Assembly (NCBI RefSeq): GCF_004005375.1
Contig: NZ_RZUF01000024.1
Coordinates: forward strand, 1-56,904
Source: Rheinheimera sediminis
GTDB lineage: Bacteria > Pseudomonadota > Gammaproteobacteria > Enterobacterales > Alteromonadaceae
Direction of reading: 5' to 3'
Length of the DNA: 56,904 nucleotides
Position numbers and translations under genes: made by a program. The notes beneath the pieces are model-generated. The model was not told where the DNA came from. It saw nothing but the letters and a program-made list of their open reading frames with translations, and made no database searches. Below, piece by piece: positions 10,966 to 56,904 of the stretch (positions are counted from its first letter, which is position 1; the number at the start of each line of letters is the position of its first letter).

Positions 10966-12251
10966 TGAAAACTTTAACCTTAGAGCCTATAGCTAAAGTG
11001 GAAGGGGTGGTGCATTTACCTGGTTCAAAAAGTATTTCCAACCGCGCTTTATTACTGGCCGCCTTAGCCAAAGGAACAACCCGTATCACCAATTTGCTCG
11101 ACAGTGATGACGTCAGCCATATGCTCAATGCCTTAACAGCGCTTGGTGTCCGGTTTTCGTTATCTGCTGATAAAACAGTTTGCGAAATCACTGGTGTAGC
11201 TGGTGTATTTGAGCGTAAAGAGCCGCTAGAACTATTTTTAGGCAATGCCGGCACAGCGATGCGTCCTTTAACAGCAGCTCTTGCTGTGTCCAATGTAGAT
11301 GTCACCTTAACAGGTGAGCCACGGATGTACGAACGTCCTATTGGCCATCTGGTTGATGCTTTGCTGCAATGGAATGCCGATATTGAATATCTGCAGCACA
11401 AAGACTATCCGCCGCTGCGTATTCGCGGTAAAGCTCTGGCTGGCGGACACATCAGTATTGATGGTTCTGTCTCCAGCCAGTTTTTAACTGCAGTATTGAT
11501 GGCTGCACCTTTGTTATCGGGCGACAGCGAAATTGTCATTAGCGGCGAACTGGTGTCTAAACCTTATATAGATATCACCTTAGCCTTGATGGCGCGTTTT
11601 GGCGTAGTCGTCGAGAACAAAAATTATCAAAGTTTTGTCGTCAAAGGTAATCAACAGTATCAATCGCCTGGCGATTTTCTGGTGGAAGGAGACGCATCTT
11701 CAGCCTCTTATTTCCTCGCAGCTGCTGCTATTAAAGGCGGTACTATTAAAGTCACAGGCATTGGCAAAAATGCAGTACAGGGCGATATTCACTTTGCCGA
11801 TGCTTTAGAAGCCATGGGTGCGACAGTAGACTGGGGTTATGACTATATTTCGGTTACCCGTAACCAATTGAAGGGCATAGACCGAGATTACAACGCTATC
11901 CCTGATGCAGCTATGACCATTGCAACCACAGCTTTATTTGCTGAAGGGCAAACAGCAATCCGTAATGTCTACAACTGGCGCGTCAAGGAAACCGATCGTT
12001 TGTCGGCTATGGCCACAGAACTGCGTAAAGTCGGTGCTGAAGTGGAAGAAGGTGAAGATTACATCTTGATCACGCCACCTACGACACTGAATCATGCCAG
12101 CATAGCGACCTACAACGATCACCGTATGGCCATGTGTTTCTCTTTGGTTGCATTAAGTAATACGGCGGTAACCATTGAAGACCCTGATTGCACCCGTAAA
12201 ACATTTCCTCAATACTTTGAAGTATTTAGCACGCTCAGCACTTTAGCTTGA
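10965..12251 (+). CDS. aroA: 3-phosphoshikimate 1-carboxyvinyltransferase (EPSP synthase)
   Basis: The 428-residue protein has the substrate-binding [18 protein letters not shown] at its N-terminus, [17 protein letters not shown] (PEP site), and [11 protein letters not shown] and DHRMAMCF toward the C-terminus. It makes EPSP from shikimate-3-phosphate and PEP. The [10 protein letters not shown] form has the Gly and Pro of glyphosate-sensitive class I enzymes. Translation is coupled to serC. Confidence 0.98.
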
Positions 12252-53459: not shown

Positions 53460-53906
53460 ATGAAACTACATAGGCTTAGCTTCGCCCTGCTATCCATAAC
53501 CTTAAGCACTGCAGTAAGTGCAGCCCCCATGAACTATGGCTTTACCATTTTAACTGAATTAAAACCACAGCAGCATGAAGCCTTGTGGACCAGAGTTAAT
53601 CCGGTACCACCTCTTTATCCTGTAGATATGGCAAGTAAAGGCGTCGCAGGTTGTGGTGTGTTTAAAGTCATTATTGATAAAGAAGGTGAAACCGAAAGTG
53701 TTGAACTGATAAGCTCGGTTCCGGTAAAAGGTGTAGCCAGAGGTGCCACCAAGGTGATCAAAAAATGGCAGTGGCACAATACAACTGGAAAACCAGACAG
53801 TGCCGAAGAAAAAATTATCAGGCTGGATTTTTGTATGGGCGGTACCACCTTAGCTGAAGCTGAAGCGCGTTGTCAGCAGCAAGCACAGCTAGAGTGCAGC
53901 GAGTAG
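53460..53906 (+). CDS. small periplasmic protein with TonB C-terminal-like domain
   Basis: The 148-residue protein has a signal peptide (MKLHRLSFALLSITLSTAVSA) and a single TonB-C-like fold (PPLYPVDMASKGVAGCGVFKVIIDKEGETESVELISSVPVKGVARGATKVIKKWQW). A tail with three Cys follows (LDFCMGG, ARCQQQAQLECSE). It lacks the N-terminal anchor and proline linker of real TonB. AAAGGA stands before the ATG. Role unknown. Confidence 0.8.
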   Translation: MKLHRLSFALLSITLSTAVSAAPMNYGFTILTELKPQQHEALWTRVNPVPPLYPVDMASKGVAGCGVFKVIIDKEGETESVELISSVPVKGVARGATKVIKKWQWHNTTGKPDSAEEKIIRLDFCMGGTTLAEAEARCQQQAQLECSE

Positions 53907-53975: not shown

Positions 53976-53997
53976 TTTGTAATCTGTATTTCATATT

Positions 53998-54012
53998 AGG
54001 GACTTATTCGCA
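53998..54012 (+). repeat. direct repeat flanking the AFG1 segment, left copy
   Basis: AGGGACTTATTCGCA, part of a short palindrome ending GTTCCCT. The right copy, differing at one base, is at 55652-55666 in the same orientation. The motif looks like an IS end or REP-like element, which I cannot name. Confidence 0.65.
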
Positions 54013-54070
54013 TGTTCCCTAGGTAAAAATCTGCCATAGGTTCAATGGTTTGCAAGGTAAAAAGCTTTCG

Positions 54071-55576
54071 TCATTGCCGTCCCCATTCCTTTCCACCCAT
54101 TTCTACCAACCGAGACGCGGCTCGTCGAAAGGAAAAGGCGAGATCATTGGCGGCCGATAATTGTGCCAGTGACACGCCACTTCGACCCGTCGCCGACCAC
54201 TCAAATTGTTCACCCTCTTTGGTACGAATCATGGTCGTCGCAAAGGAACTCGAGTTCCCCCCCTTCTCACTGACAAACAACTCTTCATTTCCATCACTGC
54301 TTTCAACTTGCGCTTCAAACTCGACAAATAATTCATCGAGCGGGACTTTTGCCGCTAGCACCAAGCGGGTGCGATATTCATAACACACGTCAATGAGGGT
54401 CACGAATCGTCGCGCTTCGTCGAGGTGATTGGCGTCTAATTGCGGCACCCGGTCCATGATGAGGACCTGAAATCGGTCGCAGAGGGAAATATAATCGGCC
54501 GCGCCGAGTGGTTGGTAGCATAACTCGGAAAAGTCAAACCAGGCGCACCGGTCATTCAACCGGGCGACCTGGACGGTGCGACCGAAGGGTACGTGAATGG
54601 CCTCGGCCTCAGTTCCGGATGCAGTGCCACCAAATATTTCTTTCAACTGCGCCTGCATGTTGTTATCACTATTATTATCGCCGTGAACATCCTTGTTTGA
54701 CCAAAAATAGGATTGACCATCAGCTCGAGTTTCGAGTCGATAATCCTTGGCGGAATCCTCCATGGAAATAATGTCGAACGTGTGTTTTAACATGTCTATG
54801 AATGGCAAAAAGAGGGATCGGTTAATGCCTCCCTCATACAAGGCATCGGGGGAGCGATTCGAGGTGGCCACCACCACGACATTCCAATCCAATAATAATA
54901 ATAAAAGTCGTTTCAAAATCATGGCATCGGCAACGTCTGTTACTTGAAATTCATCGAAACAGAGGAGTTGGGCTTCCTGTGCCAATTGCTGCGCAATGAT
55001 GGGTATCGCATCATCTCGTGGGTGCTTCTGTTTGTAGACAAAGATTCGATGATGGACGTCTAGCATGAATTCATGAAAGTGGACGCGGCGTTTGGTAATT
55101 TTTACGTGTGTGAAGCTGTGGCTGTCATTATTACAGCAAGAATCATCAGGAACATTAACCGACGCGTAAAAGAGATCCATTAGAAAGCTCTTGCCGACCC
55201 CGACCGGCCCATAAATGTACATGCCTCGCGGTGGTGGACCAAAAGACCACAAATGGAATTTCTTTCGAAGAAAGGACTGAGCGGATGCCAAGGATCGCGT
55301 CAGTAACAGTAACAGCGGACTGCTGCTTGTAGAGCTGCTCTCTGTCGGTCTGTCCGTGCGCACGGGTACTGGTGGGAGCGAGTTTAGAGACTCGTGCAGG
55401 GCATCGAGTTTTGCCGCCAGAGCGACTTGCGCGTCATCTCGTCTCACCTCCTCCGCATCCACCTTGCGTTCATACGCCGCTGTCACGGGGCCTGTCGGGA
55501 GGGACCGCCGAGCAACGCGATGTTGTGCTGCCATATTCTTCATCACCGTCTTCATCACCGTCTTCATCATCAACAT
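54071..55576 (-). CDS. AFG1/ZapE-type AAA ATPase with eukaryotic character
   Basis: The 501-residue AFG1-family P-loop protein has Walker A GPVGVGKS (123-130), FHEFMLDVH, Walker B LLCFDEF (204-210) with QVTDVADAM, sensor ATSN (237-240) and PLGAADY (356-362). Its C-terminus is the SFRRAASRLVEM type. PLGAADY, GGINRSLFLPFI, GVSLAQLS and SRLVEM, low-complexity runs (Ser/Leu near 80-92, Asn/Asp near 298-307) and a length well over bacterial ZapE (about 375) resemble mitochondrial AFG1/LACE1. No Shine-Dalgarno is seen before the Met-rich start; Met15 is another candidate. In mitochondria AFG1 aids turnover of respiratory subunits. Source and expression here are uncertain. Confidence 0.88.
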   Translation of the reverse strand: MLMMKTVMKTVMKNMAAQHRVARRSLPTGPVTAAYERKVDAEEVRRDDAQVALAAKLDALHESLNSLPPVPVRTDRPTESSSTSSSPLLLLLTRSLASAQSFLRKKFHLWSFGPPPRGMYIYGPVGVGKSFLMDLFYASVNVPDDSCCNNDSHSFTHVKITKRRVHFHEFMLDVHHRIFVYKQKHPRDDAIPIIAQQLAQEAQLLCFDEFQVTDVADAMILKRLLLLLLDWNVVVVATSNRSPDALYEGGINRSLFLPFIDMLKHTFDIISMEDSAKDYRLETRADGQSYFWSNKDVHGDNNSDNNMQAQLKEIFGGTASGTEAEAIHVPFGRTVQVARLNDRCAWFDFSELCYQPLGAADYISLCDRFQVLIMDRVPQLDANHLDEARRFVTLIDVCYEYRTRLVLAAKVPLDELFVEFEAQVESSDGNEELFVSEKGGNSSSFATTMIRTKEGEQFEWSATGRSGVSLAQLSAANDLAFSFRRAASRLVEMGGKEWGRQ

Positions 55577-55651
55577 GATGAGTTTATCAACATGGTAAGG
55601 AAAGTACGATCAAGTCCGCTTCTTCCCGCTTTTTTCGATTGTCTCAGATCT

Positions 55652-55666
55652 AGGGGCTTATTCGCA
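55652..55666 (+). repeat. direct repeat flanking the AFG1 segment, right copy
   Basis: AGGGGCTTATTCGCA, 14 of 15 identical to the left copy and 1654 bp from it. It lies at the point where a bacterial cassette gene loses its expected sequence. Confidence 0.65.
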
Positions 55667-55882
55667 ATTTACCTCGTCGGTTCCCCCAAGATCTTCGAGG
55701 AGTTGCGAAAGCGTATAAGAGATCCTTTCCTCCTCTCGGGTTTCCGCATCTAGTAAATCACACAGAAGCCCAGTCAGAGCTTCCTCTTACCAGGGTCGTT
55801 TACGTGTGAGTCGGCTAGCCACCACATCATCTAATGCATCGAAATGCCTTAGGAGCAGTCGGATCGTGCGAGGTGATAACAC
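55658..55882 (-). pseudogene. truncated conserved hypothetical gene
   Basis: Reading from GTG 55882 gives VLSPRTIRLLLRHFDALDDVV and ASRLTRKRPW. An in-frame TAA (55789-55787) follows, then EEALTGLLCDLLDAETREEER and SYTLSQLLEDLGGTDEV, ending in the flanking repeat. It resembles the N-terminus of a longer bacterial hypothetical protein I recall only in outline. It is broken twice: by the stop and by loss of its 3' part at the AFG1 junction. Confidence 0.65.
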
Positions 55883-55901
55883 TAGATCTATTCCTCTATC
55901 T

Positions 55902-55958
55902 GTTTAACGCAAAGCTAAGCGGCGCGGGTTAGCGCGTCCTTGCTTGAGCGCTTTATGC
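55902..55958 (-). other. attC-like integron recombination site, downstream of the cassette gene
   Basis: On the minus strand the 57-bp site starts GCATAAA (imperfect RYYYAAC) and ends GTTAAAC (perfect GTTRRRY). Between them imperfectly paired arms (GCGCTCAAGCAAGGACGCG against CGCGCCGCTTAGCTTTGC) surround CTAACC. It overlaps the last codons of the cassette gene. Confidence 0.7.
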
Positions 55959-56340
55959 GTGTACGATACACTGCCACATACCAGAATACGGTTGCACCAA
56001 TAAGACCACAAATGCTGCAAAACAATGTTTGTTTCATTAGATCAACACTTGAGTCTTGACCGAACGGCTTAAAACCATAAATGAATATTACACTGGGAAC
56101 TACTGCAGCTAGTAAGTACCAATGAAACTCCTGCCGCTCTAATTTTTTAAGCACATAATGCAAAGGCAAAGCCCAAGCTATTACAACAACTATGGCCACT
56201 ATTGCAGCCACACTTGCCATTAATAGCGATATATTTATACCGGAATAAGCAGTTCCAATTGAATCAACCGCAGTGACAACAAAAGTTACTACAAAAACGG
56301 TTAGAACTGTACATAAGCTAGCTATAGATAGTGATTTCAT
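55915..56340 (-). CDS. cassette-borne four-helix membrane protein
   Basis: The 141-residue protein has four hydrophobic helices (about 5-24, 34-60, 73-93, 104-126), an amphipathic basic loop (LKKLERQEFHWY) and a basic tail (YRTRIKRSSKDALTRAA). No family is recognised. It sits alone between two attC-like sites, stop codon inside the downstream one, exactly as a gene in an integron cassette. No promoter is evident in the 8 bases between the upstream attC and the ATG. Confidence 0.75.
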   Translation of the reverse strand: MKSLSIASLCTVLTVFVVTFVVTAVDSIGTAYSGINISLLMASVAAIVAIVVVIAWALPLHYVLKKLERQEFHWYLLAAVVPSVIFIYGFKPFGQDSSVDLMKQTLFCSICGLIGATVFWYVAVYRTRIKRSSKDALTRAA

Positions 56341-56347
56341 AATTTAC

Positions 56348-56402
56348 GCATAACTTTTTAGCGTCTTATCCTGCGTTCACGACGGATAAGCGCCTGTTAA
56401 AC
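56348..56402 (-). other. attC-like integron recombination site, upstream of the cassette gene
   Basis: On the minus strand the 55-bp site starts GTTTAAC (perfect RYYYAAC) and ends GTTATGC. Its arms GCGCTTATCC and GGATAAGACGC pair over 10 bp, with one extra base on one side, the extrahelical base that IntI recognises. It would belong to the preceding cassette. Confidence 0.78.
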
Positions 56403-56680
56403 GGTAGGTGCGCTCTTTATTGGTACATTTGATGCTAATGGAATTTGTATATTTAGGGAACAGCTGCTTATAAGTTTATTTTGGCCAATCTGAAGCTGTC
56501 TTTTACAGTGTTACTGTCATTTCGTATCTCATCACCTGTTTCATCCAGTGAGTATTTGTCCGTATTCAGAGCTTCTGGCAATACATCACCCTCCCGCTTT
56601 CCCGGGCTCATAGTTTTACCGCTCATTACAACCAGCCGTTAACTATCCGGTGGTCCGGTGTCCAGTCGTTTGAACCTATA
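56403..56680. other. unassigned DNA with one possible small minus-strand frame
   Basis: A 52-residue frame (56626-56468, minus; MSGKTMSPGKREGDVLPEAL... ending RLAKINL) is open, hydrophilic and without a recognised domain or ribosome site. It may be the gene of the preceding cassette or noise. Nothing else could be assigned. Confidence 0.3.
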
Positions 56681-56828
56681 GGGTCAAGTCTTGCCCTGTG
56701 CCCCATCAAATTAGAACCAACAAAAAATGTTCATAAAATCAAAAAATAATGGAAAAATATCACCAATTCATTCACAACTAATGATGTGCCCCCCCTAAAA
56801 CATCGGGGCACGGGGCAAGACTTGACCC
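56681..56828. mobile_element. MITE-like element with 24-bp terminal inverted repeats
   Basis: The outer 24 bases at each end (starting GGGTCAAGTCTTGCCC on the left and ending GGGCAAGACTTGACCC on the right) are inverted repeats, 23 of 24 matching, around 100 bp of AT-rich DNA without a gene. Similar GGGTCAAGTCTTGCC palindromes are dispersed in gammaproteobacteria (recalled). It directly abuts the IS3 fragment. Confidence 0.75.
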
Positions 56829-56838
56829 CAAACTTCCT

Positions 56839-56904
56839 CTGTCCATGGCTTGGCAACAGCGTGGGAAGCCAAAAGACCTGATGTTCCATTCTGACCAGGG
56901 CTGC
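56839..56904 (+). pseudogene. fragment of IS3-family transposase (OrfB), cut by the window edge
   Basis: The frame reads LSMAWQQRGKPKDLMFHSDQGC, matching the integrase-core segment of IS3-type OrfB (ALTMAWESRG...VMFHSDQG...), whose Asp in HSDQG is the second catalytic residue of the DDE triad. Upstream coding sequence is missing and replaced by the MITE, so at least this end is truncated. It continues beyond the window. Confidence 0.8.

Follow-up and report, generated by a model that had tools for sequence, protein, structure and literature searches.

An AFG1-type ATPase gene of probable mitochondrial ancestry, spread among genera of Gammaproteobacteria and bearing traces of an IS91-type transposase gene

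The stretch of Rheinheimera sediminis DNA analysed here (the window; 56,904 nucleotides) makes up an entire contig of a genome of 4.49 Mb, and near its right end it encodes an ATPase of the AFG1/ZapE family on the minus strand (54071-55576). The first-pass annotation of this DNA had described an intact, eukaryotic-type AFG1 gene of 501 codons, and the open reading frame bears out its integrity: it runs from an ATG start through 501 codons to a stop, with no internal stops, and the protein scores above the cut-offs of both Pfam PF03969 (269 bits; cut-off 27) and the NCBIfam ZapE model NF040713 (322 bits; cut-off 140). Walker A (GxxGxGK[ST]; here GPVGVGKS) and Walker B (hhhhDE; here LLCFDEF) motifs are present, and G126, G128, K129, D208, and E209 are invariant across 28 sequences of the AFG1-type family. 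The window protein also contains all three of the motifs that had been read as mitochondrial-type (PLGAADY, GVSLAQLS, and SRLVEM), and, reading from the sequence, there is no purine-rich stretch just 5' of the ATG, in agreement with the reported absence of a ribosome site. The composition of the gene is foreign. Of the 33 window ORFs it has the lowest codon-usage score (-1.328, against a mean of -1.106 with an sd of 0.076), and its tetranucleotide distance (0.4224) exceeds that of all 131 control windows (largest 0.3911). The gene had 0 matches among solved structures, and a search of Rfam likewise returned 0 matches.

Bacterial DNA lies on both sides of the gene, as had been proposed. The left neighbour encodes a TonB_C-domain protein (53460-53906, plus strand) and has the same locus in two genomes of the genus, which match the left flank at 92% up to 53984, where homology stops; the right flank has repeats in common with genus genomes from 56344 on. 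The right neighbour (55915-56340, minus strand) encodes a 141-aa hydrophobic protein with no Pfam family above its cut-off. The claim that the right border coincides with a truncated bacterial gene was not supported: the short frame at ~55667-55910 contains a stop, and no relative of it was found by a DNA search of genus genomes or by protein searches of plasmids, Pfam, and phages using approximate query peptides. Downstream of genes for a sensor kinase, a response regulator, and the TonB_C-domain protein, the region 53985-56904 varies between genomes, and G006, G013, and G017 have quite different sequence at this place. The region includes a 24-nt inverted repeat, GGGTCAAGTCTTGCCCTGTGCCCC (56681-56828, with 100 nt between the arms), which has relatives of ~150 bp at several sites in this genome and in the genus. 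The last 66 bases of the contig (56839-56904) are identical to a stretch of another contig of the genome (C24) and were identified by eye as an IS3-type transposase fragment.

Direct repeats (TAGGG[A/G]CTTATTCGCA) flank the gene on the plus strand, at 53997-54012 (TAGGGACTTATTCGCA) and 55651-55666 (TAGGGGCTTATTCGCA), 1,654 bp apart, the right one being 1.2 kb from the contig end. Repeat search and shuffles corroborate the earlier observation of these repeats. When extended to 24 nt, they agree at 83%. Allowing up to three mismatches, the motif has 5 matches in the window vs. 0.54 expected, and 0 of 100 shuffles reach 5; the repeats are therefore more than chance. A 15-mer of the repeat occurs at only these two places in the entire genome.

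Two features of the protein depart from bacterial ZapE and lend substance to the description of it as eukaryotic-type. The first is an insert of ~57 residues toward the C-terminus (54146-54316, minus strand; limits approximate, set by eye), ..NSSSFATTMIRTKEGEQFEWSATGRSGVSLAQLS.., which precedes SRLxEM and includes EWSATGxxGVSLAQL. The LID-to-SRLxEM distance is 91 in all 26 measurable sequences of 28 copies of the gene, whereas it is 34-37 in all 117 measurable sequences of 122 bacterial ZapE proteins, from which the insert is absent; in provisional sequences of yeast and Arabidopsis AFG1, it is 81 and 63, respectively. The second feature is the N-terminus, which in the window copy comprises 28 residues from the predicted start codon (55493-55576, minus strand), MLMMKTVMKTVMKNMAAQHRVARRSLPT, with a net charge of +6 and 0 acidic residues. 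By our own rule, the N-terminus is the segment before GPV, and it begins at the earliest ATG that is in frame and no more than 45 residues away. Defined in this way, it is 17-28 residues long in the copies, with a net charge of +2 to +8; of 33 records 32 could be parsed, and it is basic in these 32 and free of acidic residues in 31 of them. Among the bacterial ZapE proteins, 47 of 122 could be parsed; the net charge is -2 to +3 in the 37 with N-termini of up to 36 residues, whereas the 10 with longer ones (>36 residues) are mostly basic as well. The N-terminus of the copies is thus presequence-like and a candidate for a cleavable mitochondrial presequence.

After dropping five records present in both collections that were searched, at least 28 distinct copies of the AFG1-type gene were counted, including that of the window, with 77-97% protein identity to the window copy. 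The named carriers are Nitrincola, Glaciecola, Alteromonas, Marinobacter, Marinomonas, Opacimonas, and Marinobacterium, genera that we take to be mostly marine, and further genomes carry the gene too. Four of 397 genomes of the phylum are carriers, including the Rheinheimera genome itself, and of the three other close copies (89, 86, and 77%), one sits on a 4.1 Mb chromosome assembled as a single contig and another comes from outside the order of the window. The species-genome collection, scanned with an alignment of four copies plus two conserved heptapeptides, yielded at least 14 copies at 77-97% among the best 80 candidates (a lower bound), followed by a gap to ≤45% among the matches listed. 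The gene occurs in 16 of 59 Alteromonas genomes, two of these 16 being single-contig. The genus of these 59 genomes, to which G045 belongs, is identified as Alteromonas because a query from A. portus matches its member G699 at 100% over 4,701 bases. Two Alteromonas copies are decaying (L216; L136/L217): one has an internal TAG, and that of A. hispanica is cut after ~residue 416. In the copy of G023 (L120, 8989-10593), a short repeat within the coding DNA gives rise to an (HK)n run.

Within the genus of the window, only one of 22 genomes (its own) has the AFG1-type gene as a third copy, and the other 21 are without it. This genome has two further, ordinary ZapE-like genes, as do nearly all of the 22; the second of these paralogs (L002, 1222-2385) lies ~16 kb from zapE and is present in nearly all genus genomes. 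Searches of plasmids and of phages and viral contigs identified no close copy of the AFG1-type gene, and we therefore reject the notion of phage or plasmid cargo; patterns for AFG1 motifs gave 0 matches in viral contigs. A role as an anti-phage defence gene or a phage gene is also rejected (PADLOC, 0 families; PHROGs, 0 families). Searches of one literature collection returned no paper joining AFG1 with Alteromonas or with Marinobacter, and none on eukaryotic genes or mitochondrial targeting in Alteromonas.

The window and Nitrincola tapanii have in common a transferred unit (54015-55672) that is 97.1% identical over 1,658 bp; homology ends outside these limits, and the flanks in Nitrincola are other than those of the window. 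For most carriers the flanks differ beyond a few hundred bases, and several copies have non-coding flanks in common across genera. Long common flanks are found where copies have a site in common by descent, for instance those of A. genovensis, Alteromonas LOR, A. portus, and G045; in other Alteromonas genomes, such as G277 and G705, the gene is elsewhere, although that site is also present. Beside the A. portus copy lies an intergenic sequence (L132, ~11699-11791) that recurs in about ten other Alteromonas genomes, with up to several copies each. The GC content of the gene is 0.466-0.517 in full-length copies vs. 0.38-0.57 in the flanks. The AFG1-type gene moves between bacterial species and genera. 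The immediate source of the window copy is most likely another, Nitrincola-like bacterium rather than a eukaryote. If there was a step from eukaryote to bacterium, it is older and is common to the entire family of copies.

The direct repeats are scarce beyond the window. The 16-mer matches 2 of 295 genomes of the family, one of which is the Rheinheimera genome itself, and the sole other match sits inside an unrelated ORF. Across 10 genomes, nine of them other carriers, the 16-mer has one exact match in Nitrincola and one match with a mismatch in Glaciecola, and it has two matches in viral contigs, of which one falls at the end of an unrelated ORF. At the 5' border of the Nitrincola copy, the right-hand repeat motif is present with a single base changed. 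Given the scarcity of the 16-mer in the genomes checked, we reject the idea that it marks the terminus of a common insertion sequence. A second short repeat that lies beside some copies, CCTAAAGCYGACRTTAG, is found once in 4 of 16 genomes. The first-pass annotation had envisaged a transfer from eukaryote to bacterium mediated by a mobile element; of this, the discrete inserted unit and the mitochondrial-type features stand, and an IS91-type tail (see below) speaks for the element, whereas the immediate source was most likely bacterial and the direct repeats do not point to the element.

A trace of an IS91-type transposase gene adjoins the gene at its 3' end. In genome G433, the DNA directly after the stop codon aligns for 63 residues (E 5e-15) with an IS91-type Y2_Tnp protein, and G023 has part of the same transposase stretch after its stop (E 2e-11). 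These are the only strong matches among 11 copies tried, using as the query the C-terminal portion encoded by a disrupted IS91-type gene of G023, which matches Pfam Y2_Tnp; a weak match of 14 residues (E 0.009) lies 5' of L207. The window DNA is homologous to that of G433 until 41 bases past the gene, and the same DNA as the G433 tail includes a putative transposase remnant directly 3' of the stop (54032-54070, minus strand; RKLFTLQTIEPMA frame), in which the transposase frame can be seen and is too short for significance alone. A KVFTLQ-like frame at the start of the tail is present in 7 of 27 copies listed, including that of the window; some of the others have similar DNA, and others have lost it. 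No whole IS91 element, intact Y2 transposase, or element ends were found at any copy, only the 3' fragment. On the basis of the common non-coding flanks across genera and the IS91-type tail in at least two copies, we infer one capture next to an IS91-type gene, with subsequent spread among bacteria and later decay of the transposase sequence.

Pairwise dN/dS among the copies is 0.15-0.46, with a median of 0.26 (496 pairs computed, with five duplicate records included and pairs not independent; ratios taken where dS was 0.05-2). Four pairs at the same chromosomal site (A. genovensis/LOR, G045/A. portus, LOR/A. portus, and A. genovensis/A. portus) have values of 0.20-0.24, and because they have this site in common, they diverged inside bacteria. 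The window/Nitrincola pair has a dN/dS of 0.36. Two Marinobacter copies have a value of 0.57 at a dS of only 0.02, and the value of 0.44 for an uncultured proteobacterium and A. hispanica is inflated because the cut A. hispanica copy has a foreign tail. By segment (33-column blocks, 26 intact distinct copies), dN/dS is 0.83 in the N-terminus, where alignment noise may inflate it, 0.64 in the low-complexity linker, 0.08-0.39 in the ATPase core, and 0.12-0.17 in the insert. The ATPase core and the insert are under purifying selection inside bacteria, and the N-terminus drifts. This pattern indicates that the gene is kept for its ATPase and its insert, with the presequence-like segment drifting.

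In a tree built without eukaryotes, the copies group in a single clade (100/100) that is separated from the ZapE of the genus and of other Gammaproteobacteria (100/99), so the placement within gammaproteobacterial ZapE that would speak against eukaryotic origin is not what is seen. Their position beside alphaproteobacterial-type rows is unresolved in this tree, on a long stem and with a long-branch warning. The eukaryotic sequences used for comparison were provisional ones rather than database records. With both yeast and Arabidopsis AFG1 added, the copies join these at 98/90, with long branches and the bootstrap not settled, and the alphaproteobacterial-type rows fall on one side of the branch only at 43/81; in a quick tree with yeast alone, the copies join yeast (SH-aLRT 96), again with a long-branch warning. 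With Arabidopsis alone, the alphaproteobacterial-type rows close without the copies or Arabidopsis (93/94), and the copies and Arabidopsis do not join, although forcing them together is not rejected (p-AU 0.42). Tree columns followed a 30% filling rule, by which the insert columns should be left out. Eukaryotic ZapE/AFG1 is described as grouping with alphaproteobacteria (PMC7314023), and AFG1 as having probably entered eukaryotes with the mitochondrion (PMC7314023, section 10). A eukaryotic (mitochondrial-type) ancestry of the copies is likely, not proven, given that the only eukaryotic sequences compared were provisional; it rests on the insert, the N-terminus, and a suggestive tree.

The principal alternative involves no eukaryote: a ZapE that came from alphaproteobacteria, or from unsampled bacteria, would have diverged and spread in Gammaproteobacteria, with the insert and basic N-terminus arising in bacteria. 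It would suit the tree without eukaryotes and the identities of the next matches, which among those listed are mostly Alphaproteobacteria at ≤45%, with other members of the phylum at ≤48%, and there is precedent in the ZapE of Nitrosomonas, Methylomicrobium, and Methylsarcina, which lie inside the alphaproteobacterial clade as transfers (PMC7314023, section 10); the portions of PMC7314023 drawn on here include no case like the mobile AFG1-type copies of marine Gammaproteobacteria. We nevertheless consider this alternative unlikely: the insert is found in 0 of 117 measurable bacterial ZapE proteins, a short, basic, acid-free N-terminus is atypical of them, and the alphaproteobacterial-type rows close without the copies in 96% of bootstrap trees with Arabidopsis alone (vs. 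44% with yeast added). Several independent transfers from eukaryotic donors, such as algae living with these bacteria, might be read from the patchy spread over many genera and sites and from dS values of up to ~0.67 between selected pairs of copies; with non-coding flanks common across genera and the IS91-type tail in two or more copies, such repeated transfers are improbable.

An integron would offer another route, by which the gene is a cassette of a chromosomal integron. As read by eye, the minus strand has two attC-like stretches, at ~56416-56345 and at ~55945-55905, on either side of the 141-aa hydrophobic ORF to the right, which is cassette-like and on the same strand as the gene, and the genome has integron integrase genes. 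As judged by eye, however, no attC-like site lies downstream of the stop of the gene, and carriers are without a common long flank, apart from the sites common by descent, so that we hold this route very unlikely. The first attC-like stretch has relatives on contigs C5 and C10 of this genome and in genus genomes, and the two integrase matches over the cut-off are on C35 and C15 (the latter with a TGA inside). Chimeric assembly, or eukaryotic contamination joined at a repeat, could be suspected from the foreign composition of the gene and its position 1.2 kb from the contig end, and is refuted for the family of copies with next to no doubt remaining, because at least 27 other distinct copies exist elsewhere, three of them in single-contig genomes (G023, G277, and G705), and in view of the Nitrincola unit with other flanks, the Alteromonas sites common by descent, and selection on the gene within bacteria.

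We consider it probable that a eukaryotic gene for a mitochondrial-type AFG1 was captured next to an IS91-like element and then spread among Gammaproteobacteria. Under this proposal, the gene product is the mitochondrial form of AFG1/ZapE, an AAA-type ATPase consisting of a short, basic, presequence-like N-terminus, a core, and the ~57-residue insert before SRLxEM. An ancestral copy would have entered a gammaproteobacterium and ended up immediately upstream of the 3' portion of a rolling-circle (IS91-type) transposase gene, after which it would have passed among genera of mostly marine Gammaproteobacteria into many chromosomal sites, the window and Nitrincola copies being recent copies of each other. 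The protein would work beside the resident ZapE of its hosts, with core and insert kept by selection and with the presequence, useless without mitochondria, left to drift.

Mitochondrial AFG1 acts at the inner membrane, and YidC is the bacterial counterpart of Oxa1. Mitochondrial AFG1 is described as interacting with Oxa1 (PMC7314023). By analogy, the protein would most likely act next to YidC, using ATP to handle or remove inner-membrane proteins. The fuller reading, which we favour by a slight lean, is that a rolling-circle element picked up an ATPase of eukaryotic organelle quality control, which then became domesticated in bacteria as a mobile gene, its core and eukaryote-type insert kept for an inner-membrane job as its import signal decays, such that a mitochondrial protein has returned to bacteria. 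If true, AFG1 has made a round trip, from bacteria via the mitochondrion and back into bacteria. To our knowledge, there are few documented cases in which a gene passed from eukaryotes to bacteria and is now selected and mobile in many genera. With the import signal drifting and the core and insert conserved, it becomes possible to test which parts of mitochondrial AFG1 matter without mitochondria, for example, in relation to YidC vs. Oxa1.

Among known systems, the IS91/ISCR rolling-circle elements are comparable in that the gene adjoins a transposase remnant and has spread; they differ in that only a 3' transposase fragment is present here, without a complete element or defined ends. The protein resembles bacterial ZapE (NF040713, a cell division protein) in exceeding the curated cut-off and in its ATPase motifs, and is distinguished from it by identities of ≤48% among the ZapE/AFG1 proteins listed, and by an insert unlike any measurable ZapE. 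Mitochondrial AFG1 (AFG1L/LACE1; yeast Afg1) differs in that the copies reside on bacterial chromosomes and have an N-terminus under little selection; the likeness to it, for which the eukaryotic side comes from provisional sequences, lies in the AFG1 ATPase family, the presequence-like N-terminus of the copies, and the long segment between LID and SRLxEM.
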